A DNA stretch of 52,293 bases from Curvibacter sp. (GTDB lineage Bacteria > Pseudomonadota > Gammaproteobacteria > Burkholderiales > Burkholderiaceae_C): the NCBI GenBank assembly GCA_020248905.1, contig JADCGR010000045.1, forward strand, positions 1 to 52,293. Direction: 5' to 3'. Numbering within the stretch: the first letter of the stretch is position 1; the number at the start of each line of letters is the position of its first letter. This document shows positions 28,726 to 47,378 of this stretch, in pieces. The notes under the pieces were generated by a model. The model searched no databases, was not told where the DNA came from, and worked only from the letters and a program-made list of their open reading frames with translations. The position numbers were made by a program, and so were the translations under genes.

Positions 28726-28739
28726 AAGCGAGAACCCTC

Positions 28740-32400: not shown

Positions 32401-33078
32401 AACCCGGCGCGTACCTGGACGCCGGAGAACGCCGTGGGCATCGGCGGCGCCTACCTTTGCGTCTACGGCATGGAAGGCCCGGGCGGCTACCAGTTCGTCG
32501 GCCGCACCGTGCAGATGTGGAATCGCTGGCGCGTCACGCGCGAGTTCGAGGCCGGCAAGCCCTGGCTGCTGCGCTTCTTCGACCAGATCCGTTTCTACCC
32601 CGTCAGCGGCGACGAGCTGCTGCAGTGGCGCAAGGACTTCGTGGCTGGTCGCGCGCAGCTGCGCATCGAGGATGGCGTGTTCCGTCTCTCAGACTACCGG
32701 CGCTTCCTGCAGGACAACGCTGACTCCATCGGCGACTTCAAGGAGAAGCAGCAGGCGGCGTTTGAAGCCGAGCGTGAGCGCTGGCGCCAGGCCGGCATTG
32801 CCGAGACGCTGCAGGAGCCGGGTGGTTCTGATGACAGTGCCCGCGCGGCGGCCGAGGCCTTTGAGGGCGAGGTCATCGTCTCCCAGGTCTCGGGCGGCAT
32901 CTGGTGCGTGCTGGTGGAAGCCGGCGCGCAAGTGAAGGCGGGCCAGCCGCTGGTGGTGGTGGAGTCCATGAAGATGGAAATCACCGTGCATGCCAGCAGC
33001 GACGGCGTGGTCCACGAAATCCTGTGCGCCTCCGGCCAGGCCGTGAGTGCGGGCCAGCCGCTGGTGCTGGTGCGCTGA
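29476..33078 (+). CDS. Biotin-dependent guanidine (urea-type) carboxylase
   Basis: The 1200-residue enzyme has a biotin carboxylase domain at about residues 1-450 (LIANRGAIACRIIR; ATP loop KSSAGGGGIGMQ; EVNARLQVEHGVTEAVTG). The carboxyltransferase halves span about residues 480-1090, and a C-terminal biotinyl domain carries ESMKME with Lys1166 as the biotin site. It uses ATP and bicarbonate to carboxylate guanidine. Such proteins were long annotated as urea carboxylase; the riboswitch and DUF1989 partners favour guanidine. Asp700 in GAIDFTGD is, from memory, Asn in eukaryotic urea carboxylases. The start at 29476 lies after a GAGAGA site; the frame is open upstream to 29227, but that part overlaps the deiminase gene. 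Confidence 0.93.
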   Translation: MLTKVLIANRGAIACRIIRTLKRMGIASVAVYSEADAESMHVALADEAVCIGAAAPATSYLSMPHIIDAARKTGAQAVHPGYGFLSENPAFVEACEAAGLVFLGPTPAQMRLFGLKHTARALAIEAGVPLCPGTGLLPDAATALQEAERIGYPVMLKSSAGGGGIGMQMCRNADELAAAFQTVTRLAQANFSEAGVFLERYIADARHVEVQIFGDGQGNVLVLGERDCSLQRRNQKVVEETPAPNLRPEVRQALHETARKLAAAASYRSAGTVEFVVDATTQEFFFLEVNARLQVEHGVTEAVTGVDIVEWMTRLGSGTMPAFDTLNIEAKGHAVQARLYAEDPQKNFQPSTGVLTEVVFPSDLRVDTWVERGSEIGAYYDPMIAKLIAYGADRGDAIAKLSQALQDTRIAGLESNLDYLRSLMSFVPFVEGRHTTRSLASYTAPSRAFDVLAGGVLTTVQDWPGRQGYWDVGVPPSGPMDPLALRSANALLGNPVGAAGLEITVAGPTLSFRCDVQLAVTGAPIELTLDGAPVPMWSVLDVKAGQTLRLGRIQTGGCRAYVAIAGGIDVPLYLGSGSTFTLGQFGGHGGRTLRAGDVLHVGTAPAQRKLSALEVEQVRPAYGHEWEIAVLIGPHAAPDFFTPDDMEVFFATSWEVHYNSSRTGVRLIGPKPTWARSDGGEAGLHPSNIHDNAYAIGAIDFTGDMPVILGPDGPSLGGFVCPVTVARAELWKVGQLAPGHRVRFVPVSLEEANVVAAAQDTVLQPGLPVPLTGSMALPNAAVLHRTPATATSVEVVYRRSGDDNVLIEFGELKLDLELRFEAHALMTQLQAWRTDGRLPGILDLTPGIRSLQVHYDPQVISLSALMERLLQAQAALPALEDIEVPSRTVWLPLSWDDQATKLAIEKYMQSVRADAPWCPSNIEFIRRINGLDDIQQVYDIVYNANYLVMGLGDVYLGAPVATPLDPRHRLVTTKYNPARTWTPENAVGIGGAYLCVYGMEGPGGYQFVGRTVQMWNRWRVTREFEAGKPWLLRFFDQIRFYPVSGDELLQWRKDFVAGRAQLRIEDGVFRLSDYRRFLQDNADSIGDFKEKQQAAFEAERERWRQAGIAETLQEPGGSDDSARAAAEAFEGEVIVSQVSGGIWCVLVEAGAQVKAGQPLVVVESMKMEITVHASSDGVVHEILCASGQAVSAGQPLVLVR

Positions 33079-33093
33079 AACCAAGGAAACAAC

Positions 33094-34914
33094 ATGAACA
33101 AGCGACTCGACCTCTCCCTTGCTACCCTGCGCAGCCGTTACCTGCAGGGAACGCTCACGCCCACACTCCTCGTCGAGCAGATGTACGCGCAGATGCAGGC
33201 CGAAGACGCAGCGCTGGATCGCCACCTCTGGATCCGGCGCCTGACGCTGGAGGAGATGCGGGCCTACGCCCAGGCACTTGAAGGCCGTGACCCGAAGAGG
33301 CTGCCGCTCTACGGCATTCCCTTCGCCATCAAGGACAACATCGATCTCGCCGGGGTGCCCACCACCGCCGCCTGCCCGGACTTTGCCTATACCCCCGAGC
33401 GCAGCGCCACCGTGGTGCAGCAGCTCATCGACGCCGGAGCCATCCCGGTCGGCAAGACCAACCTCGACCAGTTCGCCACCGGCCTGGTCGGTGTGCGCTC
33501 GCCCTACGGTGCCTGCCGCAATTCCCTGAACCCCGAGTACGTCTCGGGTGGTTCGTCCTCCGGCTCGGCCGTGGCGGTGGCGCTCGGGCTGGCCAGCTTC
33601 TCGCTGGGCACGGACACGGCGGGCTCGGGCCGCGTGCCGGCCATGCTGAACAACCTGATCGGCCTCAAGCCCAGCTGCGGGCGCCTCAGCGGCACCGGCA
33701 TGGTGCCGGCCTGCCGCACGCTGGACACGATCTCCATCTTCGCACTCACGGCGGCCGATGCCGCGGCTGTGCTGGCCGTGGCCGAGGGTGAGGACGCGAG
33801 CGATCCGTATTCGAAGGCCATGCCGCCCGCGGGCTACAACTTTGGCGCCGCGGCGACGTTCCGCTTCGGGGTGCCACGGGCCGAGGACCTGGAGTTCCAC
33901 GGCAACGCCGAGGGCCCCGCCCTGTTTGCGCAGGCGGTGGCGCAGCTGAAAGCCTTGGGCGGCACACCGGTGGAAATCGATCTGCGGCCTTTCCGCGCCG
34001 TGGCCACGCTGCTCTACGAAGGCCCCTGGGTGGCCGAGCGCTACGCCGCCATCCGCGGCTTCATCGAGCAGCAGCCGCAGTCGCTGCACCCGGTCACGCG
34101 CGCCATCACGGAGAAGGGCATCCAGATCAGCGCGCCCGACACTTTCGAGGCGCTGTACAAGCTGAAAGCGCTGGAGAAGCAGACCCGCGGCGTGTGGGGC
34201 GGCATCGACTTCCTGCTCACGCCCGCGGCCAGCAATGCCTATACCATCGCCGCGGTCGAGGCCGATCCGATTCGCCTCAATTCCAACCTCGGCCACTACA
34301 CCAACTTTGTCAACCTGCTGGACCTGTCGGCCGTGGCCGTGCCCACGGCGATGATGAGCATGGGCATTCCCTTCGGGGTGACGATGGTCGCGCGCAGCGG
34401 GCAGGACCTGCCCCTGCTTACGCTGGCGGCGCGCCTGCATGCGCGTACCCTGCCCACCGTGGGCGCCACGCTGCATGCGCCGCATCGCAGCGGCACTCTG
34501 CCCGACGCAGCACTGTTCGCCAGCGGCCAGGTGCAGGTGGCCGTGTGCGGCGCCCACATGGATGGGTTGCTGCTGAACGACCAGCTGCGCCAGCGCGGTG
34601 GCCGGCTGGTGCGCGCCGTGCGCAGCGCGCCGCTGTACCGCTTCTACCTTCTGCCGGGCCGGCCCATCATGCGTCCGGGCATGGTGCGCGTCGAGCAGGG
34701 TGGCGCGGCCATCGAGATGGAGATCTGGGAACTGCCGGCGCGTGAGTTCGGCTCATTCGTGGCCGGCATCCCGGCGCCACTGGGCATCGGCACCGTGCAA
34801 CTGGAAGACGGTGGCAGCGTGCAGGGCTTCGTCTGCGAAGCCTATGCGGTGACCAAGGCAGAGGACATCACGCACCACGGTGGGTGGCGCGCCTTCCTGG
34901 CCAGCCAGAACTGA
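33094..34914 (+). CDS. atzF: Allophanate hydrolase
   Basis: This 606-residue enzyme of the amidase-signature family has the Ser-cisSer-Lys triad in place: Lys80 (PFAIKDNID), Ser154 (SGGSSSGSA) and Ser178 (GTDTAGSGRVPA). This gives the same spacing as AtzF (Lys91, Ser165, Ser189). The C-terminal domain (about residues 470-600) is the extra AtzF-type domain that completes decarboxylation. It turns allophanate into two ammonia and two CO2, the last step of guanidine assimilation. It lies 15 bases after the carboxylase and ends unit 1. Confidence 0.94.
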   Translation: MNKRLDLSLATLRSRYLQGTLTPTLLVEQMYAQMQAEDAALDRHLWIRRLTLEEMRAYAQALEGRDPKRLPLYGIPFAIKDNIDLAGVPTTAACPDFAYTPERSATVVQQLIDAGAIPVGKTNLDQFATGLVGVRSPYGACRNSLNPEYVSGGSSSGSAVAVALGLASFSLGTDTAGSGRVPAMLNNLIGLKPSCGRLSGTGMVPACRTLDTISIFALTAADAAAVLAVAEGEDASDPYSKAMPPAGYNFGAAATFRFGVPRAEDLEFHGNAEGPALFAQAVAQLKALGGTPVEIDLRPFRAVATLLYEGPWVAERYAAIRGFIEQQPQSLHPVTRAITEKGIQISAPDTFEALYKLKALEKQTRGVWGGIDFLLTPAASNAYTIAAVEADPIRLNSNLGHYTNFVNLLDLSAVAVPTAMMSMGIPFGVTMVARSGQDLPLLTLAARLHARTLPTVGATLHAPHRSGTLPDAALFASGQVQVAVCGAHMDGLLLNDQLRQRGGRLVRAVRSAPLYRFYLLPGRPIMRPGMVRVEQGGAAIEMEIWELPAREFGSFVAGIPAPLGIGTVQLEDGGSVQGFVCEAYAVTKAEDITHHGGWRAFLASQN

Positions 34915-34972: not shown

Positions 34973-35032
34973 AAATAGTTGCCAGCAGGTTGAGCGTCCC
35001 GATTGGCCACAGTCGTGACATTTGGCTGAGGG

Positions 35033-35134
35033 GCACTAGGGTTCCGGTCATGGCGCGAGCGGTGATGTCTGGTCCGAGAGTGCCCCGGCTCCGCAAGGGG
35101 CTCCACGGAGGGACAAAAGCCCGGGAGAGAGATG
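35033..35134 (+). promoter_or_regulatory. Guanidine-I (ykkC) riboswitch, unit 2
   Basis: The same class elements appear: CTAGGGTTCCG at 35036, GGTCCGAGAG near 35070, a variable GC hairpin (GCCCCGGCTCCGCAAGGGGC), and CCACGGAGGGACAAAAGCCC with GGGAGAGA to about 35132. The variable hairpin differs from the first copy, while the ligand-core strings are identical. It precedes the binding-protein gene by about 50 bases. Confidence 0.95.
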
Positions 35135-35181
35135 TAGGTGTCGCCTCTTCCTGCCTTTTCATCCACTTCAGGAGTTATTCG

Positions 35182-36219
35182 ATGGGCTCTCTACTGCACA
35201 ACACCAAAAGCTCCGGCCAGCTCAGCCTGCTCGGGCGCATCCTCAAGCCGCTGCTGGGCGCGGCACTGGCGCTGGGCGCGAGCTTCGCCTTTGCGGTTGG
35301 CCCGGTGCAAATGAAGATCGGCACCGTGGTCTGGATCGGCTACGGGCCCTTCTACGTGGCCGACGCGCTGGACCTGTACAAGAAGTACAACCTCAAGGTG
35401 ACGCTGCAGGTCTTCACCGACCCGGCCCTCATTCCGCCGGCCGTGGCCAGCGGTGCCCTGGATGGTGCCATGCTGACCTACGACCAGGTCATCGGCCAGG
35501 TCGCCACCGGCCAGATGCAGAAGGTCGTCATGCCCATCGACTACTCCAATGGCGGCGATGCCATCGTGGCTGACATGAGCATCAAGAGCGTGAAGGACTT
35601 CAAGGGCAAGAAGATTGGCTACAACCCGCTCTCGCCTTCGGACTTCCTGCTCTCCTACGCGCTCAAGACGGCGGGTCTGTCCGAAAAGGACATCACGCCC
35701 GTCAGCATGACGCCCGAGGCCGTGCCTGCGGCCATGGCCTCCGGCCAGATGCCCATCGGCGTGACCTATGAGCCCAGCCTGTCGCAGATCCTGAGCCAGG
35801 GCGGTGGCAAGAAGTTCAAGGTCGTGTTTTCCTCCAAGGACGCCCCCGGCCTGATCGCCGACGTGTTGGTCTTCGACGAGAAGGTCATCAAGGCCAAGCC
35901 GACCGAGATCAGCGGCATCGTCAAGGCCTACCTTGACGGCATGGCCTACATGAAGTCCAAACCGGATGAGGCCGCCAAGATCATCGGCAAGTTCATGGGC
36001 GTGTCGGCTGCCGAGGTCAAGGAGCAGCTGGGCGGCGTGTACAACATCCCGCTGGCCGAGATGCCCAAAGCCTTCGCCAAGTCCAGTGCCACCACCTCCT
36101 ACTACGGCAGCGGCGACATCATCGCCAAGCTGCTTAAGGACAAGGGTCAGATCACCAAGATCCCGGCCACCGAGAGCACCTTTGATGCCTCTTTTGTGAG
36201 TGCGCTGACCAAGAAGTAA
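35182..36219 (+). CDS. ABC transporter substrate-binding protein, probable guanidine binding
   Basis: This 345-residue periplasmic protein has a signal peptide (about residues 17-38, ending ASFAFAVG) and then an SsuA/NMT1-like fold (IGTVVWIGYGPFYVADAL; VASGALDGAMLTYDQV). It should deliver the ligand to the permease and ATPase of unit 1. Having its own sigma-54 promoter and riboswitch would allow the higher level usual for binding proteins. The start at 35182 follows CAGGAG; a longer in-frame start at 34990 would read through the riboswitch and is rejected. Confidence 0.9.
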   Translation: MGSLLHNTKSSGQLSLLGRILKPLLGAALALGASFAFAVGPVQMKIGTVVWIGYGPFYVADALDLYKKYNLKVTLQVFTDPALIPPAVASGALDGAMLTYDQVIGQVATGQMQKVVMPIDYSNGGDAIVADMSIKSVKDFKGKKIGYNPLSPSDFLLSYALKTAGLSEKDITPVSMTPEAVPAAMASGQMPIGVTYEPSLSQILSQGGGKKFKVVFSSKDAPGLIADVLVFDEKVIKAKPTEISGIVKAYLDGMAYMKSKPDEAAKIIGKFMGVSAAEVKEQLGGVYNIPLAEMPKAFAKSSATTSYYGSGDIIAKLLKDKGQITKIPATESTFDASFVSALTKK

Positions 36220-36228
36220 TCGTCCCGC

Positions 36229-36251
36229 GCGCCCGGCCCGTGGCCGGGCGC
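36229..36251 (+). promoter_or_regulatory. GC-rich hairpin between binding protein and oxygenase genes
   Basis: GCGCCCGGCC pairs perfectly with GGCCGGGCGC across a three-base loop. There is no T tract, so it more likely slows RNA decay or lowers downstream expression than terminates. It would keep the binding-protein mRNA abundant. Confidence 0.55.
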
Positions 36252-36288
36252 CCCCGGAGTCGCTGAACTTCGTCTGCCGTTCTCCCTC

Positions 36289-37311
36289 ATGTCCGCAAAG
36301 AAGCCCCTCTACCGCCACGCTGATGGCGTGCTGCCCAATACGCTGGCACTGTCGGTCGTCGTGCTCGGCTACCCGGCCTCTGTGTTGATGCTCGGCTTGC
36401 CAGCGTGGTGGCTCAGCCTGACCGGCGCGCTCCTGCTGGTGCTCACGCTCACCTGGGCGGCCTACTTCATTCACGAATTTGCGCACCACGCCATCTTTGC
36501 CCGGCCCGAGACCAATGCGCGCTGGGGCGTGCTGATGACGTGGATCACGGGCAGCTGCTACGCGCGCTTCGAGGACCTGCGGCGCAAGCACATGCGCCAC
36601 CACATCGAGCGCGCCGACGTCGTCACCTTCGACGTGCACGGTTTCATCCAGCGCGCGCCGGCCTGGTTCCGCTCGGCGGTGCTGGCGCTGGAGTGGCTCT
36701 ACATTCCCGCCGTGGAACTGCTAATGCACAGCTTCGTGGTGCTGCGGCCCTTCCGCGCAGGCGGCGAGGCAATGGAGCGTGCTCGCATGCTCGCGATCGT
36801 GGCCCTGCGCCTGGCCGGCTTCGCGCTGATGGCCTGGTGGTCACTCAAGGCCCTGGCGCTCTATGCCCTGGCCTATCTGGTGTTCCTCACCCTGCTGCGC
36901 TTTGCCGACTGCTTCCAGCACACCTACGACGCTTACCCCATCCTGGACGACGCGCCCATCCCGAATGACAAGGTGCGCGATCGTGCCTACGAACAGGCCA
37001 ACACCTACAGCGACATCGTGGGCCTCAAGAGTCCAGTGCTCAACATGCTGTGGCTCAACTTCGGCTACCACAACGCCCACCATGAGCGCCCCACCGAGCC
37101 CTGGTACCGCCTGCCGGCCTATCACCGCTCGCTCTACGCCACGGACTACGCGCAGGTCATTCCCGCTGGCGAACTGCTGCGCAGCTTTCACCGCAACCGC
37201 CTGCGTCGCATCATGGCCACGGACTACGGTGTGGTCGAGGCACCGGGCACGCCCCGGCGCGCCGACCGCTTCGTTGGTGCGGTCGGCGTCTCGTTCCTGA
37301 CGGCGGTGTGA
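36289..37311 (+). CDS. Fatty acid desaturase family membrane oxygenase
   Basis: The 340-residue membrane protein has the three histidine boxes of the diiron desaturase/hydroxylase family: HEFAHHAIF near residue 64, KHMRHHIERAD near residue 101 and NFGYHNAHHERP near residue 258. Hydrophobic segments lie at about residues 18-60 and 160-205. Family members desaturate or hydroxylate lipids, but some act on small molecules. It lies in the guanidine-controlled unit 2 with dehydrogenases and hydrolases, so oxygenation of a guanidino compound is a reasonable guess. No ferredoxin or reductase gene is adjacent. The substrate is unknown. Confidence 0.85.
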   Translation: MSAKKPLYRHADGVLPNTLALSVVVLGYPASVLMLGLPAWWLSLTGALLLVLTLTWAAYFIHEFAHHAIFARPETNARWGVLMTWITGSCYARFEDLRRKHMRHHIERADVVTFDVHGFIQRAPAWFRSAVLALEWLYIPAVELLMHSFVVLRPFRAGGEAMERARMLAIVALRLAGFALMAWWSLKALALYALAYLVFLTLLRFADCFQHTYDAYPILDDAPIPNDKVRDRAYEQANTYSDIVGLKSPVLNMLWLNFGYHNAHHERPTEPWYRLPAYHRSLYATDYAQVIPAGELLRSFHRNRLRRIMATDYGVVEAPGTPRRADRFVGAVGVSFLTAV

Positions 37312-37333
37312 CATGACGCTGTCCTACGGGCGG

Positions 37334-37456
37334 GGGCCTGTCCCCACCCATTTCTAATGTGCGAACGTGGCGAGAACGGTGTCAATCGAGGCGCGCGCCT
37401 ACCACATGGTGTTCCTGATCCGCAACGCATCATGAGAAATGGGTGGGGACAGGCCC
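37334..37456. repeat. REP-like element with 22-bp perfect inverted repeat
   Basis: A 22-base arm at 37334-37355 (GGGCCTGTCCCC, then ACCCATTTCT) is perfectly repeated in inverse at 37435-37456, 79 bases apart. GGGCCTGTCCCC-type arms are common in dispersed REP/BIME elements of beta- and gamma-proteobacteria. The right arm lies inside the first codons of the next gene. A weak frame between the arms might be a worn REP-transposase start, but I would not claim it. Confidence 0.65.
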
Positions 37457-38226
37457 TGACCGGCAAAGTGGTCCTGATCACCGGTGCCGCGGGTGGCATC
37501 GGTCGTGCCCTGGCCGCCGCCTTCGCGCGCGAAGGCGTGCGTCTCGTCCTGCTCGACCGCACAGTCGCACCCCTGCATGACCTTGCCGCGCAACTGCAGC
37601 CCGTCACCGAGGTCGCGGCACATGCCTGCGACCTGAATGACGATGCCGCCGTGGCGCAGCTGGCGGAGACGCTGCGCTCCACGCACGGCCGCGTGGACGT
37701 GCTGCTCAACAACGCGGGTGCCGAGTACCCCACGCCGCTGACGGACGATGCACCCGACGCCATGGCCCGCTGGTCGCGCCTGCTCGACAACAACGTCAGC
37801 AGCATGGTGCGGCTGACGCGCGCGTTGCTGCCGTTCCTGCCCGCGGGCGGCAGCATCATCAACCAGTCTTCCATCTGGGGCCGCAGTGCGGTGGCGGATT
37901 TCTCCGCCTACGTGGCCAGCAAGCACGCGGTGATCGGCCTGACGCGTGCGCTGGCCTGGGAGCTGGCGCCGCGCGGCCTGCGCGTCAACGCCGTCTGCCC
38001 CGGCTGGATCCGCACCGACGCGGCGCTCGCCTCGCTGCAGGCCATGGCGCAGAAAGAAGGCCGCAGCGCCGGGCAGATCGAGCGCGAACTGCTGGCGCGC
38101 CAGGCCATCCCGCGCTGGCTGGAGCCGGCCGACATCGCCGGCGTCTATCTTTTCCTCGCCAGCGAGGATGCACGCAGCCTCACGGGCCAGAGCCTGGTGG
38201 CGAGTCACGGTGAGGTGATGGCATGA
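37432..38226 (+). CDS. Short-chain dehydrogenase/reductase (first of two)
   Basis: This 264-residue SDR has the cofactor motif TGAAGGIG near residues 17-24, NNAGAEYP, and the catalytic YVASK near residue 159 with Ser in NQSSIW. The only in-frame ATG close to the domain is at 37432, followed by RNGWGQAL. Those residues are encoded by the right arm of the REP-like repeat, so the insertion seems to have replaced the native start. The ribosome-binding site is poor. It overlaps the second SDR by four bases (ATGA). The likely role is oxidation of an alcohol or aldehyde in the same pathway. The frame is also open to an ATG at 37357. Confidence 0.83.
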   Translation: MRNGWGQALTGKVVLITGAAGGIGRALAAAFAREGVRLVLLDRTVAPLHDLAAQLQPVTEVAAHACDLNDDAAVAQLAETLRSTHGRVDVLLNNAGAEYPTPLTDDAPDAMARWSRLLDNNVSSMVRLTRALLPFLPAGGSIINQSSIWGRSAVADFSAYVASKHAVIGLTRALAWELAPRGLRVNAVCPGWIRTDAALASLQAMAQKEGRSAGQIERELLARQAIPRWLEPADIAGVYLFLASEDARSLTGQSLVASHGEVMA

Positions 38227-38993
38227 GTTCCACGTCTGCATTTGCCGGCCAGCTTGCGGGCCGCGTGGCCCTGGTCACGGGCGCGGCCACCGGCATCGGT
38301 CGCGCCACGGCCAAGGCGCTGGCGCAAGCCGGCGCCGCCGTGGCCGTGAATCATCTGCGTCAGCCGGACGCAGCGGCGCAGCTCTTGCACGAGATCGAAG
38401 CACTGGGCGCACGCGCCGCAGCGTTCGACGCCGACGTCACCCGCGCCGCCGAGGTGGCACAGCTGGTGCAGGTGGTCGAAGACCGGTTCGGTCCCATCGA
38501 CGTGCTGGTCAACAACGCCGGCATCATTCTGGAGAAGCCGCTGGCGGAAACCGGCGAGGACGAATGGGACCACCTGCTCGCGGCGGACCTGAAGTCCGTC
38601 TTTCTCGTCACGCGCGCCGTGCTGCCCGGCATGCAGGCGCGCCAGCGCGGCGCCTTTGTCAATATCGCTTCCGATCTGGGCATCCTGGGCCGCACCCACT
38701 TCACGGCCTATTGCGCCGCCAAGGCTGGCGTCATCGGCCTCACCCGCGCTCTGGCGCGCGAGGTCGCGCCGCACATCCGCGTCAATGCCGTGGCACCGGG
38801 CGCCGTGAACACAGCCATGGTGTCACCGGAGCTCATGAGCGCCGAGAGTCTGGCGCAGGAACTCGGGGTGCCGCAAGGACGCATCGCCGAGCCGGCCGAG
38901 ATCGCGGCCAGCGTGGTCTTCCTCGCCAGCGATCTGGCGCGCTTCTACTGCGGGCAGGTGCTCGGGCCCAACGGCGGCTCGGTCATGCCCTGA
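38223..38993 (+). CDS. Short-chain dehydrogenase/reductase (second, FabG-like)
   Basis: This 256-residue classical SDR has TGAATGIGRA near residue 19, NNAGIILEKPL, the catalytic YCAAK near residue 162 with Ser in NIASDLG, and an ending of GQVLGPNGGSVMP typical of 3-oxoacyl-ACP reductase-like enzymes. The start overlaps the first SDR. Paired SDRs after an oxygenase suggest stepwise oxidation of a hydroxylated side chain. The preferred cofactor is probably NAD(P) without a clear choice. The next gene starts 13 bases later. Confidence 0.88.
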   Translation: MSSTSAFAGQLAGRVALVTGAATGIGRATAKALAQAGAAVAVNHLRQPDAAAQLLHEIEALGARAAAFDADVTRAAEVAQLVQVVEDRFGPIDVLVNNAGIILEKPLAETGEDEWDHLLAADLKSVFLVTRAVLPGMQARQRGAFVNIASDLGILGRTHFTAYCAAKAGVIGLTRALAREVAPHIRVNAVAPGAVNTAMVSPELMSAESLAQELGVPQGRIAEPAEIAASVVFLASDLARFYCGQVLGPNGGSVMP

Positions 38994-39006
38994 AGGAACG
39001 GCAACA

Positions 39007-39924
39007 ATGTCCGCCGCCACGTCCGCCCCGACCCGCCGCGCCGTTGCGCTGCTGTTTTTCTCGGCCACGCTCTGGGGCCTGAGCTGGTGGCCGCTCAAGG
39101 TCTTCAGCGCGCAGGGCCTGGCCGGCGCCTCGCTCTCGCTGCTCAGCTACGGCCCCGTGGCGCTGTGTGGCCTGATCCTGCTGTGGCGCCAGCGCGCCGT
39201 ATGGCGCGAGCAGCCCGGTATGCTGCTGTGGCTGGCGCTGGTGGGCGGCAGCGCCAACGTGGCCTTCGTCACCGCGCTCATGCAGGGCGAGGTGGTGCGC
39301 GTGATGCTGCTGTTCTATCTTTCCCCCGTGTGGTCGGTGCTGGGCGCTCGCCTGTTCCTGGGCGAGGCCATCGGGCGCCGTCGCCAGCTGGCTGTAGTAC
39401 TGGCGTTGGCTGGCCTGGGCGCGGTGCTCGGTGGTGGTGCCGCCGCGCTGGACAGCGCCCTCAGCGCCAACGACTGGCTGGCGCTGCTCTCGGGCCTGGC
39501 GTTTGCCGGCAACAACCTGCTGGCGCGCGCCACGCCGCAGATCCCCATGGCCAGCAAGACCGTGGCCGTCTTCCTGGGCGGCACGCTCACGGCCGCGCTG
39601 ATGCTCGGCCTGGGTGCCCCAGCCCCGGAATGGAGCGCGCTGTCAGCCGGCACGGTGCTGGGCGTGCTGGCCTATGGCTTTCTCTGGCTGGGTCTGGCAA
39701 TGGTGACCTGGCAGTACGGCGTCACGCACCTGGAGACCGGACGCGCAGCGGTGATCCTGATCACCGAACTGGTGGTGGCCGTGGGCTCGTCGGTGCTGAT
39801 GGGCGAGGAGCAACTGGTGGCCCGCATGGTGCTGGGCGCGCTGCTGATCGGTGCCGCCGCCCTGCTGGAGGCGACCGACAACCCGAATCCGGCTGAAGCT
39901 GGCAAGCGACTTGCTACGGAGTAG
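39007..39924 (+). CDS. EamA/DMT-family transporter
   Basis: This 305-residue protein has ten hydrophobic segments in two EamA repeats (FFSATLWGLSWWPLKVFSAQ; LYLSPVWSVLGARLFLGEAI; a similar second half ending VGSSVLMGEEQLVARMVLGA). Members export or exchange amino acids, amines and other metabolites. Its place between the SDRs and the amidohydrolases suggests transport of a pathway substrate or by-product such as an amine. The small drug exporters linked to other guanidine riboswitches belong to a different, shorter family (SMR). The following gene begins three bases after its stop. Confidence 0.85.
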   Translation: MSAATSAPTRRAVALLFFSATLWGLSWWPLKVFSAQGLAGASLSLLSYGPVALCGLILLWRQRAVWREQPGMLLWLALVGGSANVAFVTALMQGEVVRVMLLFYLSPVWSVLGARLFLGEAIGRRRQLAVVLALAGLGAVLGGGAAALDSALSANDWLALLSGLAFAGNNLLARATPQIPMASKTVAVFLGGTLTAALMLGLGAPAPEWSALSAGTVLGVLAYGFLWLGLAMVTWQYGVTHLETGRAAVILITELVVAVGSSVLMGEEQLVARMVLGALLIGAAALLEATDNPNPAEAGKRLATE

Positions 39925-39927
39925 CCC

Positions 39928-40692
39928 ATGAACACCGTCTGGATGAACCAGCTCGCCTGGCCCGACTATGAAGCCCGCGTGCAGCGCGAGCAGCCCGTGA
40001 TCTTCCTGCCGGTGGGTGCCCTGGAGCAGCATGGGCCGCACCTGCCGCTGGGCACGGACGCCATGCTGGCCACGGCGGTGGCCGCCGATGCCGCGGCGCA
40101 GGTCGGCGGCCTGGTGGCGCCTGCGCTCTCCTACGGCTACAAGTCCCAGCCCAAGTGCGGCGGCGGCCAGAACTTCTGCGGCACCACCAGCGTCGATGCT
40201 GCCACGCTGATCGGCTCCGTGCGCGATGCCGTGCGCGAGTTTGCGCGCCACGGCGTGACCAAACTGGTGTTCGTCAATGGTCACTACGAGAACCAGTGGT
40301 TTCTGATCGAGGGCATCGACCTCGGCCTGCGCGACCTGGGCCCGCAGGCCAAGCTGCAGGTGGTGCGCCTGGAGTACTGGGATTTCCTCACCGAGCAGAC
40401 CCTGGCCTCGGTCTTCCCCGCAGGTTTCCCCGGCTTCGCGCTGGAGCACGCCGCGGTGATCGAGACCTCGCTCATGCTGTACTACCACCCTACGCTGGTG
40501 CGGCAAGACCTGATCCCGGGCGACCCGCCGGCCGACTTCCCGCCCTACGACGTCTACCCTACCAAACGCCACTGGGTGCCGATTTCCGGCGTGCTGTCTT
40601 CGGCGCGCGGCGCCACCGCGGACAAGGGCCAGCGTATGGCAACCGAAGTGACCAAACGCATGGCCGAGGCCGTGCGCCACGAGTTCGGCTGA
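39928..40692 (+). CDS. Creatininase family amidohydrolase
   Basis: The 254-residue enzyme closely follows Pseudomonas creatininase. The metal ligands correspond with a one-residue shift: Glu33, His35 and Asp44 (GALEQHGPHLPLGTD), then His119 and Glu121 (NGHYEN), with the active-site His174 in LEHAAVIETSLML. GYKS with GGG (about 70-80) and FPPYDV are also shared. The active-site Trp174 of the Pseudomonas enzyme corresponds to Phe170 here. It may open the ring of creatinine or a similar cyclic guanidine to a linear acid. The alignment is from memory. In the operon it is 10 bases before the isochorismatase-type gene. Confidence 0.85.
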   Translation: MNTVWMNQLAWPDYEARVQREQPVIFLPVGALEQHGPHLPLGTDAMLATAVAADAAAQVGGLVAPALSYGYKSQPKCGGGQNFCGTTSVDAATLIGSVRDAVREFARHGVTKLVFVNGHYENQWFLIEGIDLGLRDLGPQAKLQVVRLEYWDFLTEQTLASVFPAGFPGFALEHAAVIETSLMLYYHPTLVRQDLIPGDPPADFPPYDVYPTKRHWVPISGVLSSARGATADKGQRMATEVTKRMAEAVRHEFG

Positions 40693-40702
40693 AGGCTCGG
40701 GC

Positions 40703-41377
40703 ATGGACACCTTCTCGATTGACCCGACGCGCAGCGCGCTGCTGCTGATCGACCTGCAACGCGACTTTCTCGACCCGCGCGGTTATGCCGCCCAGGCTGG
40801 GCTAGACGTGCTTCGGCTGCGCCGCGTCATCAGGCCGGCACTGGCACTGCGCAACGCTGCGCGCGACAGCGGCATGCGGGTCATCCTCACGCGCGAAGGG
40901 CATCGCCCCGACCTGGCCGACTGTCCAGGCACCAAATGGGCGCGCAGCCGCGCTACGGGTGCGGAGATCGGCTCAGCCGGCCCGTTGGGTCGTCTGCTGG
41001 TGCGCGGCGAGTACGGGCACGACCTGATCGACGAATTTGCCCCGCGCGAAGGCGAGCTGGTACTGGACAAGCCGGGCTACAGCGCCTTCCACCAAACCGA
41101 CTTGGACCAGATCCTGCGCGTGGCGGCCATCGACACGCTTGTGGTCTGTGGCGTCACCACCGAGGTCTGTGTGCACAGCACAGTGCGGGCAGCCATCGAC
41201 TTGGGCTACCACTGCATTACCGTGGGCGATGCCTGCGCTGCTTCGCAGCCCGAACTGCAGGCGCCCGCATTGGCCATGGTGGGCGTGGAAGGCGGCATCT
41301 TCGGCGAGCTGAGCGACCACGCCAGTCTGCTGGGTCGCCTGCCGCAGTCGCGCCGGCTCATCGGAGCGTTGACATGA
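40703..41377 (+). CDS. Isochorismatase-type cysteine amidohydrolase
   Basis: The 224-residue enzyme has the triad Asp17 (LLIDLQRDF), Lys123 (LDKPGYSAF) and Cys156 (GVTTEVCVHST) of the isochorismatase-like hydrolases. This family includes biuret hydrolase, N-carbamoylsarcosine amidase and related ureido amidases. The patterns GHRPDLADCPGTKW and LVRGEYGHDLIDE recall biuret/ureido hydrolases in particular. In this setting it may remove ammonia from a carbamoyl or ureido intermediate. It is coupled to the next gene by an ATGA overlap. Confidence 0.87.
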   Translation: MDTFSIDPTRSALLLIDLQRDFLDPRGYAAQAGLDVLRLRRVIRPALALRNAARDSGMRVILTREGHRPDLADCPGTKWARSRATGAEIGSAGPLGRLLVRGEYGHDLIDEFAPREGELVLDKPGYSAFHQTDLDQILRVAAIDTLVVCGVTTEVCVHSTVRAAIDLGYHCITVGDACAASQPELQAPALAMVGVEGGIFGELSDHASLLGRLPQSRRLIGALT

Positions 41378-42174
41378 CCCAGGCAAAAAAGCTCTGGCCA
41401 CTCCTCACGGCCACGCACCGCTACGACAAATCACTCTCCACCTGGCAGCGCGGCACTGGGCAGATGATCGAGGCGCCCATCCTGGCCTACCTGATCGAGA
41501 CGGCGAATGGCCGCATCCTCTATGACGTGGGCTGCGATCACCGCAAGATTCACGATCCCGTGCTGCGGACGCAGTACTACAACCCGGCCGAATTCGCCTT
41601 TGGCGCACCCGAGATGGGCGAGGAGCAGCGCATCCCCGCGCACCTGGCGCGCCTGGGTCTGACCCCGGCCGACGTGGACCTGATCTTCATCGGTCACCTG
41701 CACTTCGATCATGCCGGCGGCCTCAAAGAACTGCGGCGCTGCGGCTGCGGCGCCGAGATCCATGTGCAGCAGGCCGAGGTGGAGGCCGCGCGCCACGACC
41801 CGGCCGTCTTCCCCGATGACCTGGTGGACGACAGCGGTGCGCCGCTGCAGTGGCGCCAGCTCGCCGGGGAATACACGGTAGCACCCGGCGTTCAGGCCAT
41901 TGCCACGCCGGGCCACACCGCGGGCCACATGTCGCTGTTGGTTGAGCTGCCCCATGGCAGGCCGGTGCTGCTGGCAGGCGACGCGGCCGATCTGCAGGAA
42001 AACCTGGACGACGAGGTCGCACCCGGCAACTGCTGGCAGGGGCGCCATGGCGAGGCCGTAGCGAGCATCCGCAAGCTCAAACAGATCGCGACTGAAACCG
42101 GGGCCTGGCTGTGGCCCAACCATGACATCGACTTCTACCGCCGCCTGCGGCCCTTTCCCGATGCCTATGTCTGA
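41374..42174 (+). CDS. Metallo-beta-lactamase-fold hydrolase (lactonase-like)
   Basis: This 266-residue metallohydrolase has the dizinc motif HLHFDHAGG (near residue 110), TPGHTAGHMSLLVE, the bridging Asp in LLAGDAADLQ and the last His in WPNHDIDFY, the layout of the AHL-lactonase/AttM group. Quorum-signal lactonase activity is possible, but in this operon hydrolysis of a small lactone or lactam in the same pathway is more likely. The start at 41374 overlaps the preceding stop by four bases. It overlaps the following broken gene by eight bases. Confidence 0.87.
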   Translation: MTQAKKLWPLLTATHRYDKSLSTWQRGTGQMIEAPILAYLIETANGRILYDVGCDHRKIHDPVLRTQYYNPAEFAFGAPEMGEEQRIPAHLARLGLTPADVDLIFIGHLHFDHAGGLKELRRCGCGAEIHVQQAEVEAARHDPAVFPDDLVDDSGAPLQWRQLAGEYTVAPGVQAIATPGHTAGHMSLLVELPHGRPVLLAGDAADLQENLDDEVAPGNCWQGRHGEAVASIRKLKQIATETGAWLWPNHDIDFYRRLRPFPDAYV

Positions 42175-42919
42175 GCAAGACCCTGACCCCTGGTCCGCCG
42201 TCCCTGAGCCTGCCACCCCACCGGTGCCCGTGCGTTACCGCGGGGTCTGGCAACGCTCGCTGCTGCAGACAGTCGACGGCGAGGATGACAGCAGTTGGGT
42301 GCGCTGGCTGCAGCTGGGCCGCTGGCATGCTGACCTGCGGGTGGCACGCGCGGCGCGCCCTGGCGCCCTCGCGGCGCAGAACCAAGACAGCCACCCCTAG
42401 GCGCAGAATCGGCTGCGCCTGCAGCAAGGCTTCGCCGGCATCACCCAGGTCGAGACCGGCGTGAGCGGTGAAATCTGCACCTGGCACCGGCTGGTGGACT
42501 ACCAGCCGCCGGGCAGCACCCCGGATGCGGGCCACATGTCCTTCGAGTCGCCAGAACGCATCGTCGAGATCGGCGTACACGGTGCCTACCGCGAAGTCTG
42601 GCAACGTTTGCCCGGTTCCACCGGCCGCAGCATTGCCTTGGCCGAGCCTGCTCGCCGCGACGGTCAGCCGGCAGCACGCCTGTTCCTGGCCGGTCACTAC
42701 CTGATGCGCGTGCGGCCCAGTTCCCGGATCGGGAACCCGGCGTTCGAGATTACCTTCGGTACGCTCACGGACGGCCAATGGCACATCGAACGTTCAACCC
42801 ATCCTCACCTGGAAGGACAGGCACAGGCCGTCGCACTGGATCGTACCGGCATGGAACTGGCCCGGGTGCGGCAGGATGACGCCAGCACCCACTGGCGCAT
42901 CCTGCAATGGGAGAATTGA
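42167..42919 (+). pseudogene. Unknown gene split by one in-frame amber codon
   Basis: A single frame runs from MSEQDPDPWSAV at 42167 to ILQWEN at 42919, interrupted only by TAG at 42398-42400. Both sides look coding: VRYRGVWQRSLLQTVDGEDD before it, and WHRLVDYQPPGSTPDAGHMS and GAYREVWQRLPGSTGR after it. The whole product would have about 250 residues, rich in Trp and charged residues, like a lipocalin-type or DUF protein. I do not recognise the family. A short indel or a point mutation near the stop is likely. It begins inside the end of the metallohydrolase gene, so it was the last gene of unit 2. Confidence 0.65.
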
Positions 42920-43349: not shown

Positions 43350-44558
43350 TTACAACCAGCCCTCTTGCTCGGCTTTACGCCCTTCGCTCAGCATCGCCAA
43401 ACCGAGTTTCTTCATCGAGTCTGGCAAATCCGTGTCAGCAAGCAATCGCTGCAACAGAACCACATCGTGATCATTGAGTGGCCATTTCTGGCTCACTGCA
43501 TTCCACTCATCCAGTCCCATGCGAAAAGGTTCCCAATCTAGCCCTTGACTCGTCCAAAGCGCCCCAACAGTACGGGCGATGTCGATTCCAGCAGGGTCTG
43601 CATCCGCGCTCACCCTAAGCGGCGCTGGCGCAAGTCGAAGGAGCGTGCGCACCGTATCCAGCCAGTCTTTTGACGGTCGCCCTGGCAACCAAGCCATCAG
43701 TTCTCCCGGCGGTCGCTGTCCCGCCTGCCGCTCGAAGCTGGCTCTGTTTTCAATCAACCACCAATGCTCCGGATGGGCTTTGATTGCTGTCACCCGTTTC
43801 ACATCCTCCAACGGTATTGCGATATAGCGAAGCGGTGAGAGATCCATTACCCGCTCGCCCCACACTAACTGGGCGTCACCCGCCAGCCAGATGACCGGAA
43901 GGAACCGGGTCACTCCCAGACTCTCGAGATCGAACGACTTCTCAAGCCACTTCCAGTCGGCGGCACTGATGGCCTTAGTGTGCTCGCCCGCAAAAAGCGC
44001 GAAGTCTCGCCGGGTGCCTTCCATTTCTTCTCGGCACCAGTCAAGCAAAGACGTCAGCAGGTCCAGCCGAGTGATCAGAATATCCACGCGCAGCGAGGTT
44101 TCCCTCTGCAGTTGCTCAATCGCCTGCGCAACCCGCGCGCGCAGCTCCGCATCGGTCTCTTGCTCGAGCGTGCTCAACCACGCATGGGCTTGTTCCAGCC
44201 GCTGTGATCGGGCTTCGTCACGTTGGCTTCGGCTGCCAACGCCGAGAAGCGACTTGAGACGGTCCAGGTCGCGCCAAGTCAGGGTGTCCCAATGCCAAAT
44301 TCCGCCCTGCAGTCGCTCTTTGCGGGTAATCCATCCCTCACGAAGTAGCCAATCGCACAAGGCATCGGCACGCTCGATGCTTGACCCACCATCTTCCTTG
44401 AGCAAAGCCTCACGGCTGCGACTCAGGTTGTCTTTGCGCACCCAGGCAGCCAACAGCTCCCGATCCTCTCTGGCAAGCAGTCCCAGATCTGCGGGAGGCT
44501 CACGCGACGCCGTTCTTTGTCGCACACCTCGTTTGATCTGAACGTCCTGCCAGTCCAT
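43350..44558 (-). CDS. jetD: Wadjet nuclease subunit JetD
   Basis: The 402-residue protein has a helical N-terminal part (about residues 1-200) and a C-terminal Toprim-like domain. The metal-site pattern is Glu270 (LIENRASFE) and Asp319/Asp321 (VSADADPAGIDIA), with the family ending EQEGWL. JetD is the nuclease of the Wadjet complex, which cuts small circular plasmids after loop extrusion by the SMC-like JetABC part. It is the last gene of the minus-strand operon, nine bases after jetC. Confidence 0.9.
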   Translation of the reverse strand: MDWQDVQIKRGVRQRTASREPPADLGLLAREDRELLAAWVRKDNLSRSREALLKEDGGSSIERADALCDWLLREGWITRKERLQGGIWHWDTLTWRDLDRLKSLLGVGSRSQRDEARSQRLEQAHAWLSTLEQETDAELRARVAQAIEQLQRETSLRVDILITRLDLLTSLLDWCREEMEGTRRDFALFAGEHTKAISAADWKWLEKSFDLESLGVTRFLPVIWLAGDAQLVWGERVMDLSPLRYIAIPLEDVKRVTAIKAHPEHWWLIENRASFERQAGQRPPGELMAWLPGRPSKDWLDTVRTLLRLAPAPLRVSADADPAGIDIARTVGALWTSQGLDWEPFRMGLDEWNAVSQKWPLNDHDVVLLQRLLADTDLPDSMKKLGLAMLSEGRKAEQEGWL

Positions 44559-44567
44559 GAGGTGGCC

Positions 44568-47378
44568 TTACACGTTGACCGGACGGCGCTGCAGGACACC
44601 AATCGGTGGCGCCCACCGTGCCCCTGGTGGTTTCTTGGACGTCACAAGGGTCACATCAGCCGGCTCGAACACCTCGACGTTGTGCGTGATCGGCGTGGTC
44701 AACACGTACTGGGCTCGGGTCGACTTCAGGAAATGCCCCACCAGCTGGATATTGCGCACGTCCAGGTGCGCAAACGGCTCGTCGATGAACACGAATCCTC
44801 CGGGCGTTTCCTCGTCTTTGAGCAGGCCCACCAGGAGGATGAGTGACTTGATCACCTGCTGGCCACCTGAGGCCTCACCGTCGTTCAGACCAATTTGTCC
44901 CTTGCCATCGAAGTTAAAGTTGACCTTCAACTCTGCCTGGCGCAGCACACTGTCGTCGTTGTCCAGGTGCGGAAGATCCGCGCTGACTTCCACGCCGGCC
45001 AGCTGACCGAGTTCCACAATGTTCTTGCGATACCGACGCACGGTGCTACGCAACACGTCGATATAACGCTCCCGTGCATTGTTGACAGCAATGCGGGCCG
45101 CTTCATTGCTGGCTTCTCGCTGCTGGACCTGATGTCTTTGGCCGCTGACCGTGGCCACCATCAGGGTATGACGCTCCTCCACGGAGTCGTCTTTTTCCCA
45201 CTCGCCTTTCTCTAGGGTTCGGTTCAGCTCCTCCCCGCGCAGTCTTGCCTGCGTGGCGTTTTTGAATTGCTCCTGTAGCGCTGCTATGGTCTTCGCCTGA
45301 ATCCATCGTGCCGGGAACTTGGCCTTTGCCGACCGCAACTGGCTGGACTGGTCTTTCAGCTCGTCTCGACGGGCATTCCATTCCCGTTCGTATTTCGTTG
45401 CAGCGGCCTCGTTGTCGCGCAAGCGCGTCTGAACATGGTTGTAGTCCGCCTGTAGATCGCGCGCCCGGTTTGAGGTCGTTTGGTAGTCCTTGTCCAGTTG
45501 CTGCCAGCGTAGAGCGGCTGTGATGCGCGCTTGCTTGAGCTGCGGCAGTTGGCGCCGGGCTTGCTCGAACACGTCTTTGCGCTTCAGCAATTCCTCGACC
45601 GCCCGATGTCCCTTGGAGGCATCCAGTGTGGCGTTCCGTTGACGGGTGTTTTCTTGCTGATCCGTGGCGATCTGGCCCAACTGCTTGTCGAGCGTCTCCA
45701 ACCGGCGCCCGATAGAGTCCTTGCGTGCGCTCAAGGCCGCGGCACCAAACTGGTAGTCCTCGGGATTTATCCAGACACTTCGACCACCACGGCCGTCACG
45801 CCAGTAGGCTTGCGACGTGATCCATTCGCCACCCACTTTGCTGCCCTCGGCCGTGGACTCCACGCGTCGGATCTGGCCTAGCTGCTTGACCAACCAGGAG
45901 GGCACCTTGTCCGTGAATTTCAGGACGGCCAACAGGCTATCCGGATCCGGCTTGCCAGAAACCTGGACTGTGTCTGTCACGATGTAGTGGCGATAGCGCT
46001 CGCGCTCGGCCAGTGCCATGGCACGCGCCTCGTCTCCCGATTTTTTCAGGAGCACGATCCCGCGCGAACCTCGTAAGACGCCCTCAGCAGCCGCACGCCA
46101 GTGGTCATCCACGATGTCCGTGACATCTGCCATGAGGTAGTGATCGATTCCTTCGTTACGCAAGACACGGCGGAAACGGTTCACGTCATCAGGCACGGGT
46201 GCCAGTCGCTCGTTTTGGCACTTGTCCCATGCTTGCTGGGCCGCGCGCCTTTGCGCGCTTAATTCATGCCATTGTTGTTCGAGCTCGTCCTTGCGCCCCT
46301 CAAGTTCTTTCAGTCGCACTGACAGCTGCTGGGCATCGCCTTCCACCTTGGCCAGCTCATGAAGTTCGTTTTCTTCTTTCACCAGCTGTTCGACCGGTCG
46401 TTCCTGTGCAGACGCGTTGTTTAACTCGCCCTGCGCGACGCCGCGATCAACATTCAGTTGTTTCGCGTCTTCTTCCGCTTTTTGCGCATCATTTGAGAGC
46501 TGCAACAGCTTTTTTCTGTCTTCAACTTGCTGGCGTGTTCCTGCGACGTGCTGTAGGCGCTGCCGGTGCAACTCACGTAGCTGTTTGGTCAACTCGGCGC
46601 GGCCTTCGCTCCACTGCAAAACGGGGATGACTTCGGTCCAGAGTCGTTCCTTCTCGCTCAGTTTGTCCTTGTACTGGCGATAGAGATTGACCTTGGCTTC
46701 GAGCTGGGCCAGCTGAGCTTCGCCGTGCGCGAGATCTCGCTTGGCCGCCTCAACTTCCTGCGCCACCTCCTGCTGCTGTCGACGGGCTTCTTCGTATCGG
46801 TCCAGCACTTCCTGGTCGCCAAACACATCGAACACTAGGCGGAGCAGCTCCTTGGGCGAGTATTCGCACAAGCGATCTGTCTGACCTTGCTCCAGCGCCA
46901 GCACGCGGGCAATCGCCCGGCTCAGACCCGCTCCCTCCAGACGCCGGCGCCAATGCTCGATGCCCAACCAGTCTTTCTCTGGAAGTTGCACCAATGTCTC
47001 AATGGGAACATCGCCCTCCGCCATCGTGTAGCGCCGCTGCCAGTCACCGCCGTTGCGCTCGATGCGGCACGCCAGGGTCACCTGATCCGAGTACAGAAGG
47101 TTGCGGGCGAACGGACGGCTGGAGGCTTGGCGACCGTGAGGCTTGTTGTCCACGGTTGCCCGTAGCCAGGCGGAATCCGCATTGGCATGGCGCGCATAGG
47201 TCTTGTAGCTTCGCCCGCCGGAACACTCCAGTCCCAGGAGTGTGCGCATCGCATCCAGTAAAGTGGTCTTGCCTGATCCGTTCGGCCCAGCAACCGTGAT
47301 GATGGAGCCATCCAACGGCAAGGTCAGTCGCTCACAGTAGTCCCAATGCAGCAGCTCAAGTGATAAAAGGTGGAACAT
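44568..47378 (-). CDS. jetC: Wadjet SMC-like ATPase JetC
   Basis: The 936-residue SMC-type protein has Walker A GPNGSGKT at residues 31-38, long coiled coils at about residues 200-400 and 540-800, and a hinge-like globular part near residues 400-540 (VNRFRRVLRNEGIDHYLMAD). The signature GEASGGQQVIKSL and Walker B GGFVFIDEPFAHLD lie near residues 840-880. It is the motor that extrudes plasmid DNA. The order jetA-jetB-jetC-jetD with gaps of -17, 3 and 9 bases indicates one operon. The system subtype is not assigned. Confidence 0.92.
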   Translation of the reverse strand: MFHLLSLELLHWDYCERLTLPLDGSIITVAGPNGSGKTTLLDAMRTLLGLECSGGRSYKTYARHANADSAWLRATVDNKPHGRQASSRPFARNLLYSDQVTLACRIERNGGDWQRRYTMAEGDVPIETLVQLPEKDWLGIEHWRRRLEGAGLSRAIARVLALEQGQTDRLCEYSPKELLRLVFDVFGDQEVLDRYEEARRQQQEVAQEVEAAKRDLAHGEAQLAQLEAKVNLYRQYKDKLSEKERLWTEVIPVLQWSEGRAELTKQLRELHRQRLQHVAGTRQQVEDRKKLLQLSNDAQKAEEDAKQLNVDRGVAQGELNNASAQERPVEQLVKEENELHELAKVEGDAQQLSVRLKELEGRKDELEQQWHELSAQRRAAQQAWDKCQNERLAPVPDDVNRFRRVLRNEGIDHYLMADVTDIVDDHWRAAAEGVLRGSRGIVLLKKSGDEARAMALAERERYRHYIVTDTVQVSGKPDPDSLLAVLKFTDKVPSWLVKQLGQIRRVESTAEGSKVGGEWITSQAYWRDGRGGRSVWINPEDYQFGAAALSARKDSIGRRLETLDKQLGQIATDQQENTRQRNATLDASKGHRAVEELLKRKDVFEQARRQLPQLKQARITAALRWQQLDKDYQTTSNRARDLQADYNHVQTRLRDNEAAATKYEREWNARRDELKDQSSQLRSAKAKFPARWIQAKTIAALQEQFKNATQARLRGEELNRTLEKGEWEKDDSVEERHTLMVATVSGQRHQVQQREASNEAARIAVNNARERYIDVLRSTVRRYRKNIVELGQLAGVEVSADLPHLDNDDSVLRQAELKVNFNFDGKGQIGLNDGEASGGQQVIKSLILLVGLLKDEETPGGFVFIDEPFAHLDVRNIQLVGHFLKSTRAQYVLTTPITHNVEVFEPADVTLVTSKKPPGARWAPPIGVLQRRPVNV

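Follow-up and report, generated by a model that had tools for sequence, protein, structure and literature searches.

The 52,293-nucleotide contig JADCGR010000045.1 of Curvibacter sp. (assembly GCA_020248905.1), which belongs to a 3.2-Mb genome as its contig C40 and is referred to here over its whole length as the window, carries two successive gene clusters, each headed by a Guanidine-I riboswitch (Table 1). The first (unit 1, positions 26099-34914) is, as judged from its gene content, a complete guanidine carboxylase operon encoding Gca, CgdAB and AtzF. The second (unit 2) belongs to guanidine metabolism as well and very likely converts a larger guanidino compound to free guanidine. In the reading that we favour and consider probable, unit 2 is an operon that guanidine switches on and that carries out the oxidative N-dealkylation of an N-alkylguanidine, with methylguanidine as the simplest case. 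What was read from sequence comprises the riboswitches, the classes of the genes and their conservation, the homology of the lyase together with its catalytic residues, the linkage of two of the genes (SDR2 and CREA) and the clade of a third (IHL); the chemical steps are all proposals built on these data.

Behind its riboswitch, unit 2 encodes an ABC substrate-binding protein (SBP), a membrane di-iron hydroxylase (DES), two short-chain dehydrogenase/reductase (SDR) proteins, an EamA-family carrier, a creatininase-family amidohydrolase (CREA), an isochorismatase-like cysteine hydrolase (IHL), an MBL-fold hydrolase and, as the ninth gene product, a lyase homologue. The permease and ATPase partners of the SBP are encoded in unit 1. 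The gene classes that the first-pass annotation had proposed from position 35182 onwards are borne out by Pfam and NCBIfam models (NMT1-like SBP, FA_desaturase, two SDRs, EamA, Creatininase, Isochorismatase and Lactamase_B), as is its second riboswitch unit: the Guanidine-I aptamer scores 76.2 bits, above the RF00442 gathering threshold of 63 bits, and is predicted to be the guanidine-responsive switch of unit 2. Only the two copies heading units 1 and 2 were matched in the whole genome at E ≤ 0.001. The folding energy of the unit 2 riboswitch region was no better than that of shuffled sequences (z 0.15), and no expression platform is claimed.

The ninth gene, which the first-pass annotation did not recognise, is split by a TAG codon at 42398, and the open reading frame at 42461-42919 covers its 3′ part; in a profile search of the genome this gene was the only match (E 2.8e-81, with one TAG inside). 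Its relatives include MgdL, an N-(hydroxymethyl)guanidine lyase with the catalytic residues D49 and R51 that has been modelled as a beta-barrel (PMC12508155). Two proteins, from loci L117 and L120, served as stand-ins for published MgdL on the basis of gene order and residue positions. In both loci an MgdL-family member lies directly after a 2-oxoglutarate-Fe(II) (2-OG-Fe(II)) oxygenase (351 and 354 aa) and downstream of the guanidine carboxylase, matching the published order in Vreelandella boliviensis (PMC12508155); D49 and R51 occupy the published catalytic positions in the L120 member, and the gca products of L120 and the window share 56% identity over 1213 columns. A profile made from the operon homologues matched the L117 protein with E 1.5e-50 and the L120 protein with E 6.6e-47, and pairwise comparison of the homologue from locus L026 with the L120 member gave 29% identity (E 2e-21). 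The D-x-R motif is present in 69/69 lyase homologues, standing ahead of the stop in the window copy, and an AF2 model of the L026 homologue is a beta-barrel (pLDDT 91.4). These similarities place the ninth gene and its homologues in the MgdL family, as predicted hemiaminal lyases. Since the ninth gene is homologous to mgdL, the most likely activity of the operon is dealkylation of an N-alkylguanidine, with DES as the proposed hydroxylase standing in for the published 2-OG dioxygenase.

In the proposed mechanism the SBP, together with the unit 1 permease and ATPase, would import the N-alkylguanidine, and DES would hydroxylate the carbon adjoining the guanidine nitrogen to give an N-(1-hydroxyalkyl)guanidine (a hemiaminal), which the MgdL-family protein would cleave to guanidine and an aldehyde. 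By a parallel exit, SDR2 (perhaps also SDR1) would oxidise the hemiaminal to an N-acylguanidine (N-formylguanidine in the case of methylguanidine), to be hydrolysed by CREA and/or IHL to guanidine and a carboxylate. Without MgdL, N-(hydroxymethyl)guanidine persists with a half-life of more than 1 h (PMC12508155), which would leave time for a dehydrogenase to act. The guanidine formed would pass through the carboxylase/CgdAB/AtzF pathway of unit 1 to ammonia and, as the riboswitch ligand, would keep both units on.

Scanning 84,980 species genomes yielded 482 relatives, and the 80 best loci were retained; judged by record title, these belong to Burkholderiales or unplaced Proteobacteria. Some loci come from a genome that was fetched twice (e.g. 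L015/L059, L017/L040, L022/L073 and L023/L103). A Guanidine-I riboswitch lies 0-210 bp upstream of the SBP match, followed by DES, in 74 of the 77 testable loci (L026, L086 and L088 were excluded, as their contigs end before the site). In L035 the riboswitch precedes a permease-ATPase-SBP-DES series; in L081, which shares its contig with G151:C1, the only Guanidine-I copy of the genome is found roughly 1 kb upstream of the permease, beyond the fetched stretch; and the contig of L099 starts within the carboxylase gene, so that the head of the operon lies off it. SBP identity across the compared related loci is 57-88%.

Within the same family, 11 of 299 genomes (that of the window included) carry DES relatives. 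In the other ten, the best DES match stands in the shared order SBP-DES-(SDR1)-SDR2-(EamA)-CREA-(IHL)-(MBL), with SBP 64-82% and CREA 70-80% identical to the window proteins. Nine of these ten have a Guanidine-I riboswitch before the SBP; in the tenth (L021, genome G151) unit 2 is continuous with the carboxylase operon, and the single riboswitch copy is found upstream of the permease of that operon. SBP and DES adjoin on one strand in related loci, the distance from the SBP stop to the DES match ranging from about -16 to 234 bp (negative in some), and the gene order of unit 2 is preserved across genera. By these comparisons unit 2 is a conserved operon and not a chance neighbourhood. The idea that the genes after the SBP are transcribed apart and are neighbours by chance, which a GC hairpin between SBP and DES in the window might favour, is largely refuted by this adjacency and kept order, and we regard it as extremely improbable. 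The absence of a terminator after the SBP, asserted in the first-pass annotation, holds for classical terminators, although the sequence there contains a strong GC hairpin lacking a T-run, possibly a candidate attenuator or mRNA stabiliser. Terminator-like sites between 26000 and 45000 of the window show no excess (9 found, 8.4 expected by chance).

Unit 2 is also tied to the carboxylase pathway. With the C-terminal 650 residues as query, the carboxylase was found in 31 of the 299 family genomes: in 10 of the 11 with DES, compared with 21 of the 288 without it (Fisher p 3e-10, kinship ignored). The eleventh DES genome (G114) has the carboxylase as a 1240-aa open frame that was matched in two pieces, below the threshold of this search. 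A separate search of nine genomes (that of the window, five family genomes with units 1 and 2 apart and three others) matched the carboxylase in all nine, at full length in seven; in G114 one frame was matched in two pieces, and in G537 the pieces lay on separate contigs. All 11 DES genomes carry a Guanidine-I riboswitch. Two copies are present in 10 of them, whereas the 21 genomes with the carboxylase but not DES never have more than one (32 genomes searched). The relatives were thus found in the company of guanidine genes, with the riboswitch and SBP before DES, the carboxylase in the same genomes and a lyase homologue as ninth gene; the first-pass annotation had named their occurrence without any guanidine genes as the finding that would overturn its view.

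These data also bear on a stress response, in which guanidine would induce a membrane-lipid desaturase, an EamA exporter and protective SDRs, and the operon would make no guanidine. The FA_desaturase and EamA families are indeed present, and exporters occur among guanidine-riboswitch genes elsewhere (PMC12508155). However, neither the MgdL-family lyase nor the two amidohydrolases from acylguanidine-type families fit this scheme, the SBP implies uptake, and DES genomes also carry the carboxylase; we therefore hold it to be very unlikely.

Gene content was compared in 59 loci whose sequence continues for 7 kb or more beyond DES (22 of the 80 were dropped and L024 was added), presence being scored with fixed identity thresholds, under which a diverged orthologue may count as absent. 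The lyase homologue is the most frequent component (56 loci), followed by IHL and EamA (51 each), SDR2 and CREA (49 each), SDR1 (44) and MBL (39). It is absent from L024 and L081, both of which have SDR2 and CREA, and from L099, which has neither. A minimal relative, L119:3468-7160, consists only of a Guanidine-I riboswitch, DES (42%), MBL (62%), the MgdL-family gene and EamA. The expected co-occurrence of eight genes was therefore confirmed as a conserved operon, but not as a set in which every gene is essential.

SDR2 and CREA are present together in 49 of the 59 loci and both missing from 10, and neither was found alone (Fisher p 1.6e-11, kinship ignored); the same 10 loci also lack SDR1. 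On the DES tree, which offers four supported independent contrasts (seven on all branches), CREA changes with SDR2 in all four supported cases, while IHL, MBL and EamA mostly do not. This constant pairing suggests a second exit in which the hemiaminal is oxidised to an acylguanidine and then hydrolysed. The natural reading is that the SDR product is the CREA substrate, SDR2 being the proposed hemiaminal-to-acylguanidine dehydrogenase.

Creatinine is a cyclic acylguanidine, and CREA scores 357 bits against the curated TIGR04448 creatininase cut-off of 235 bits. It resembles Pseudomonas putida creatininase (PDB 1j2t) over its full length, with the metal-site motifs and W154 kept: among 59 CREA sequences, the metal-site motif and YWDF (containing W154) occur in all and GHYEN in 58. 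The two differ at W174 and D175 of 1j2t (positions counted on the printed alignment), residues to which we ascribe a presumed role in creatinine binding. They are F and A in the window and F/Y and A in 58 of the 59 sequences, the remaining sequence not fitting the pattern. CREA is thus a proposed acylguanidine hydrolase, which an N-acylguanidine formed by hemiaminal oxidation would suit.

The first-pass annotation suggested a larger, perhaps cyclic, guanidine (creatinine or similar) as substrate. In such a route DES would hydroxylate a cyclic guanidine (creatinine or glycocyamidine) at C5, an SDR would form the 5-oxo compound, CREA would open the ring and IHL would cleave N-oxalyl-guanidine to oxalate and (methyl)guanidine, amounting to a biological creatol/creatone route. 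The creatininase score and conserved motifs of CREA agree with it, the order hydroxylase-SDR-CREA-IHL fits the chemistry, and non-enzymatic conversion of creatinine to creatol and methylguanidine has been published (PMC3775425). However, W174 and D175 are replaced in nearly all CREA proteins, DES occurs without CREA and the SDRs in 10 of the 59 loci, the family matches obtained for the window genes included no creatinase or sarcosine oxidase, and a lyase homologue implies an open N-(1-hydroxyalkyl)guanidine, suiting it better than a ring. This reading, considered first on account of CREA and IHL, was demoted when the ninth gene turned out to be related to MgdL and CREA to be both dispensable and altered at W174 and D175, and we now rate it as unlikely. 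What stands of the earlier proposal is the role as a feeder of unit 1, in line with the riboswitch-headed loci, carboxylase co-occurrence and lyase homology.

Guanylurea is N-carbamoylguanidine and therefore itself an acylguanidine. The window IHL is 59.5% identical to its best plasmid match, the IHL of pMET-2. In the IHL tree, a 60-row clade (SH-aLRT 100) comprises 58 operon IHLs, L106 (pMET-2) and L107 (a Nitrosospira plasmid); L106 is nested among the operon IHLs on branches with values of 81 and 90, in a quick tree where it was flagged as a long row. The catalytic D, K and C motifs are kept in nearly all of 57 IHLs. The metformin-degrading plasmid pMET-2 encodes an IHL that was assayed as a guanylurea hydrolase (PMC9800807). 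From the plasmid and the neighbouring genes we take L106 to be the gene assayed, BB_00025. The operon IHL thus falls into the clade of an assayed guanylurea hydrolase, which is consistent with an acylguanidine amidase role. Biuret hydrolase was rejected as its identity: this is the best solved relative (209 bits), yet the NCBIfam model gave 228 bits against a cut-off of 370, and the best plasmid match is the pMET-2 enzyme. The pMET-2 region (L106:5540-9248) contains genes for a binding protein, deaminase, IHL, permease and ATPase; it differs from unit 2 in that the hydrolase gene stands beside deaminase and ABC genes, with no DES or lyase annotated.

DES exceeds the Pfam FA_desaturase cut-off of 29.7 bits by far (121.6 bits), and its histidine columns are invariant in the alignment. 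Its paralogue in L025 (47-48%) has no such gene cluster around it. Plasmid transfer of DES was not supported, as the only match in 72,556 plasmid records was a cyanobacterial one with 36.5% identity. The cyanobacterial relative (36.5%; L141:6758-8337) adjoins an ectoine-synthase-like gene, with a halogenase nearby.

Several observations weigh against N-dealkylation by unit 2. No solved sequence matched DES, and the solved enzymes closest to it in fold, AlkB alkane monooxygenase and stearoyl-CoA desaturase (SCD1), act on hydrophobic chains and are only 12-14% identical to it in sequence, whereas the proposed DES substrate is polar and cationic. The lyase frame is interrupted by the TAG in the window's own genome. 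This may be either a real stop or an assembly error; the frame runs uninterrupted over the lyase gene in L026 (DES 89% identical) and L066 (DES 80%), and in the window strain spontaneous decay or the SDR/CREA exit may carry the flux. With about 30% identity of the homologues to the L120 member, transfer of the substrate from MgdL is weak. The SDR2-CREA contrasts, only four in number, cannot reach significance (p 0.125), and in L094, a locus not among the 59, SDR1 and CREA occur with no SDR2 call. A Guanidine-II element at the place in question binds methylguanidine and guanidine in V. boliviensis (PMC12508155); one scoring over the cut-off precedes the carboxylase in 9 of the 11 DES genomes and 10 of the 21 others, with no clear enrichment, and as a marker of methylguanidine use it is not decisive. 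Finally, two SDRs, two hydrolases, MBL and EamA exceed what methylguanidine as sole substrate would need, since MgdH and MgdL demethylate it with two proteins (PMC12508155).

The surplus genes would have work if DES hydroxylated a larger natural guanidine (guanidinoacetate, 4-guanidinobutyrate, agmatine or arginine) at its guanidine-bearing carbon, the lyase homologue freeing guanidine and the matching aldehyde for the SDRs and other enzymes. The logic is that of the favoured reading with another R group, and GntB, which we take to be desaturase-like, is a parallel. This transmembrane protein makes linear hydroxylated arginine in guanitoxin synthesis (PMC10367076). MgdL is nevertheless reported to be narrow, being specific for N-(hydroxymethyl)guanidine (PMC12508155), and no semialdehyde-type aldehyde dehydrogenase family was found among the matches of the window genes. 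We judge a larger guanidine to be an improbable substrate and retain N-dealkylation of a simple N-alkylguanidine as the preferred reading.

The closest described system is MgdH/MgdL of V. boliviensis (PMC12508155, Nat Commun 2025), which shares with unit 2 the Guanidine-I control, the link to the carboxylase pathway, an ABC importer and the combination of an oxygenase with an MgdL-family lyase having D-x-R. Its oxygenase is a 2-OG-Fe(II) dioxygenase, whereas that of unit 2 is a membrane di-iron protein of the FA_desaturase/AlkB fold; the word 'desaturase' is absent from the MgdH/MgdL paper (PMC12508155). Unit 2 has in addition its own riboswitch unit and extra SDR, creatininase-family, IHL, MBL and EamA genes. 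It occurs mostly in Burkholderiales, while MgdH/MgdL is found in halophiles, and the window lyase is interrupted. The guanidine carboxylase pathway (Gca, CgdAB and AtzF) corresponds to unit 1, with its Guanidine-I and Guanidine-II elements; unit 2 would be an upstream feeder outside the described pathway. Literature searches for a guanidine riboswitch with a creatininase or with a desaturase, judged by titles and listings and with most subscription papers and preprints outside their reach, returned nothing on this operon.

The natural source of free guanidine is the open question behind guanidine riboswitches. If our reading is true, guanidine release reaches into many Burkholderiales by way of another class of enzyme, and the guanylurea hydrolase of metformin breakdown has a pre-pharmaceutical origin; the operon also supplies a set of directly testable substrates. 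More tentatively, and with appreciable doubt, we suggest that a stable guanidine hemiaminal, produced by a membrane di-iron hydroxylase and leaving through either the MgdL-family lyase or an SDR, an N-acylguanidine and a neofunctionalised creatininase with IHL, could define a second, independently assembled class of guanidine release that was the natural source of the guanylurea hydrolase on metformin-degrading plasmids.

Table 1. Features of units 1 and 2 (positions in the window; functions predicted from the matches given)
Feature	Position	Strand	Basis
RS1, Guanidine-I riboswitch at head of unit 1	26099-26207	+	RF00442, 84.4 bits
ABC permease	26222-27079	+	PF00528, 89.5 bits
ABC ATPase	27086-27919	+	PF00005, 112 bits
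cgdA, DUF1989, carboxyguanidine deiminase subunit	27934-28725	+	PF09347, 208 bits; operon position
cgdB, DUF1989	28740-29390	+	PF09347, 237 bits
Guanidine-II riboswitch preceding carboxylase	29408-29455	+	RF01068, 38.5 bits
gca, guanidine carboxylase	29476-33078	+	biotin carboxylase/CT domains
atzF, allophanate hydrolase	33094-34914	+	TIGR02713, 776 bits (cut-off 511)
RS2, Guanidine-I riboswitch aptamer at head of unit 2	35025-35129	+	RF00442, 76.2 bits, E 7.4e-12
SBP, ABC substrate-binding protein, NMT1-like	35182-36219	+	PF09084, 90.8 bits; ATG start after AGGAG
10-bp GC hairpin between SBP and DES, without T-run	36229-36251	+	–
DES, membrane di-iron hydroxylase, FA_desaturase/AlkB superfamily	36289-37311	+	Pfam FA_desaturase, 121.6 bits
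SDR1 oxidoreductase	37432-38226 (frame open from 37357; start 37432 likely)	+	PF13561/PF00106
SDR2 oxidoreductase	38223-38993	+	PF00106, 203 bits
EamA-family carrier	39007-39924	+	PF00892, 55.4 bits
CREA, creatininase-family amidohydrolase	39928-40692	+	TIGR04448, 357 bits
IHL, isochorismatase-like cysteine hydrolase	40703-41377	+	PF00857
MBL-fold hydrolase, AiiA/pyridoxolactonase-like	41374-42174	+	PF00753, 62.8 bits; NF045699, 149 bits, and NF047925, 146 bits, both below cut-off
Ninth gene, predicted MgdL-family hemiaminal lyase homologue	42167-42919	+	in-frame TAG at 42398-42400

The genes from SDR1 through MBL are tightly packed, with 4-nt overlaps between SDR1 and SDR2 and between IHL and MBL and with other gaps of 3, 10 and 13 nt; the ninth gene overlaps MBL by 8 nt. 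DES is separated from the likely SDR1 start by 120 bp containing a perfect 16-bp inverted repeat that flanks this start and extends into SDR1 (arms 37340-37355 and 37435-37450). A mobile element was dismissed as its origin, as a genome search allowing up to 2 mismatches matched only the two arms themselves.

MgdL-family genes were also seen in other settings. A guanidine operon variant (L116:9349-18890), in which no DES match was found, has an MgdL-family gene, EamA, ABC genes and creatininase-family and glutamine-synthetase-like genes before cgdA, cgdB and gca. In L118:9654-11426 an MgdL-family gene adjoins a zinc alcohol dehydrogenase, in a 20-kb locus without a guanidine gene match.

At the beginning of the window (1-127, minus strand) lies a piece of a group II intron truncated by the contig end. 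Downstream of unit 2, minus-strand genes at 43350-47378 gave weak matches to the JetD (46 bits), mad3 (83 bits) and JetC (78 bits) defence models, and two genes at 47382-49383 had no match. These genes may represent a diverged or different SMC-like system.

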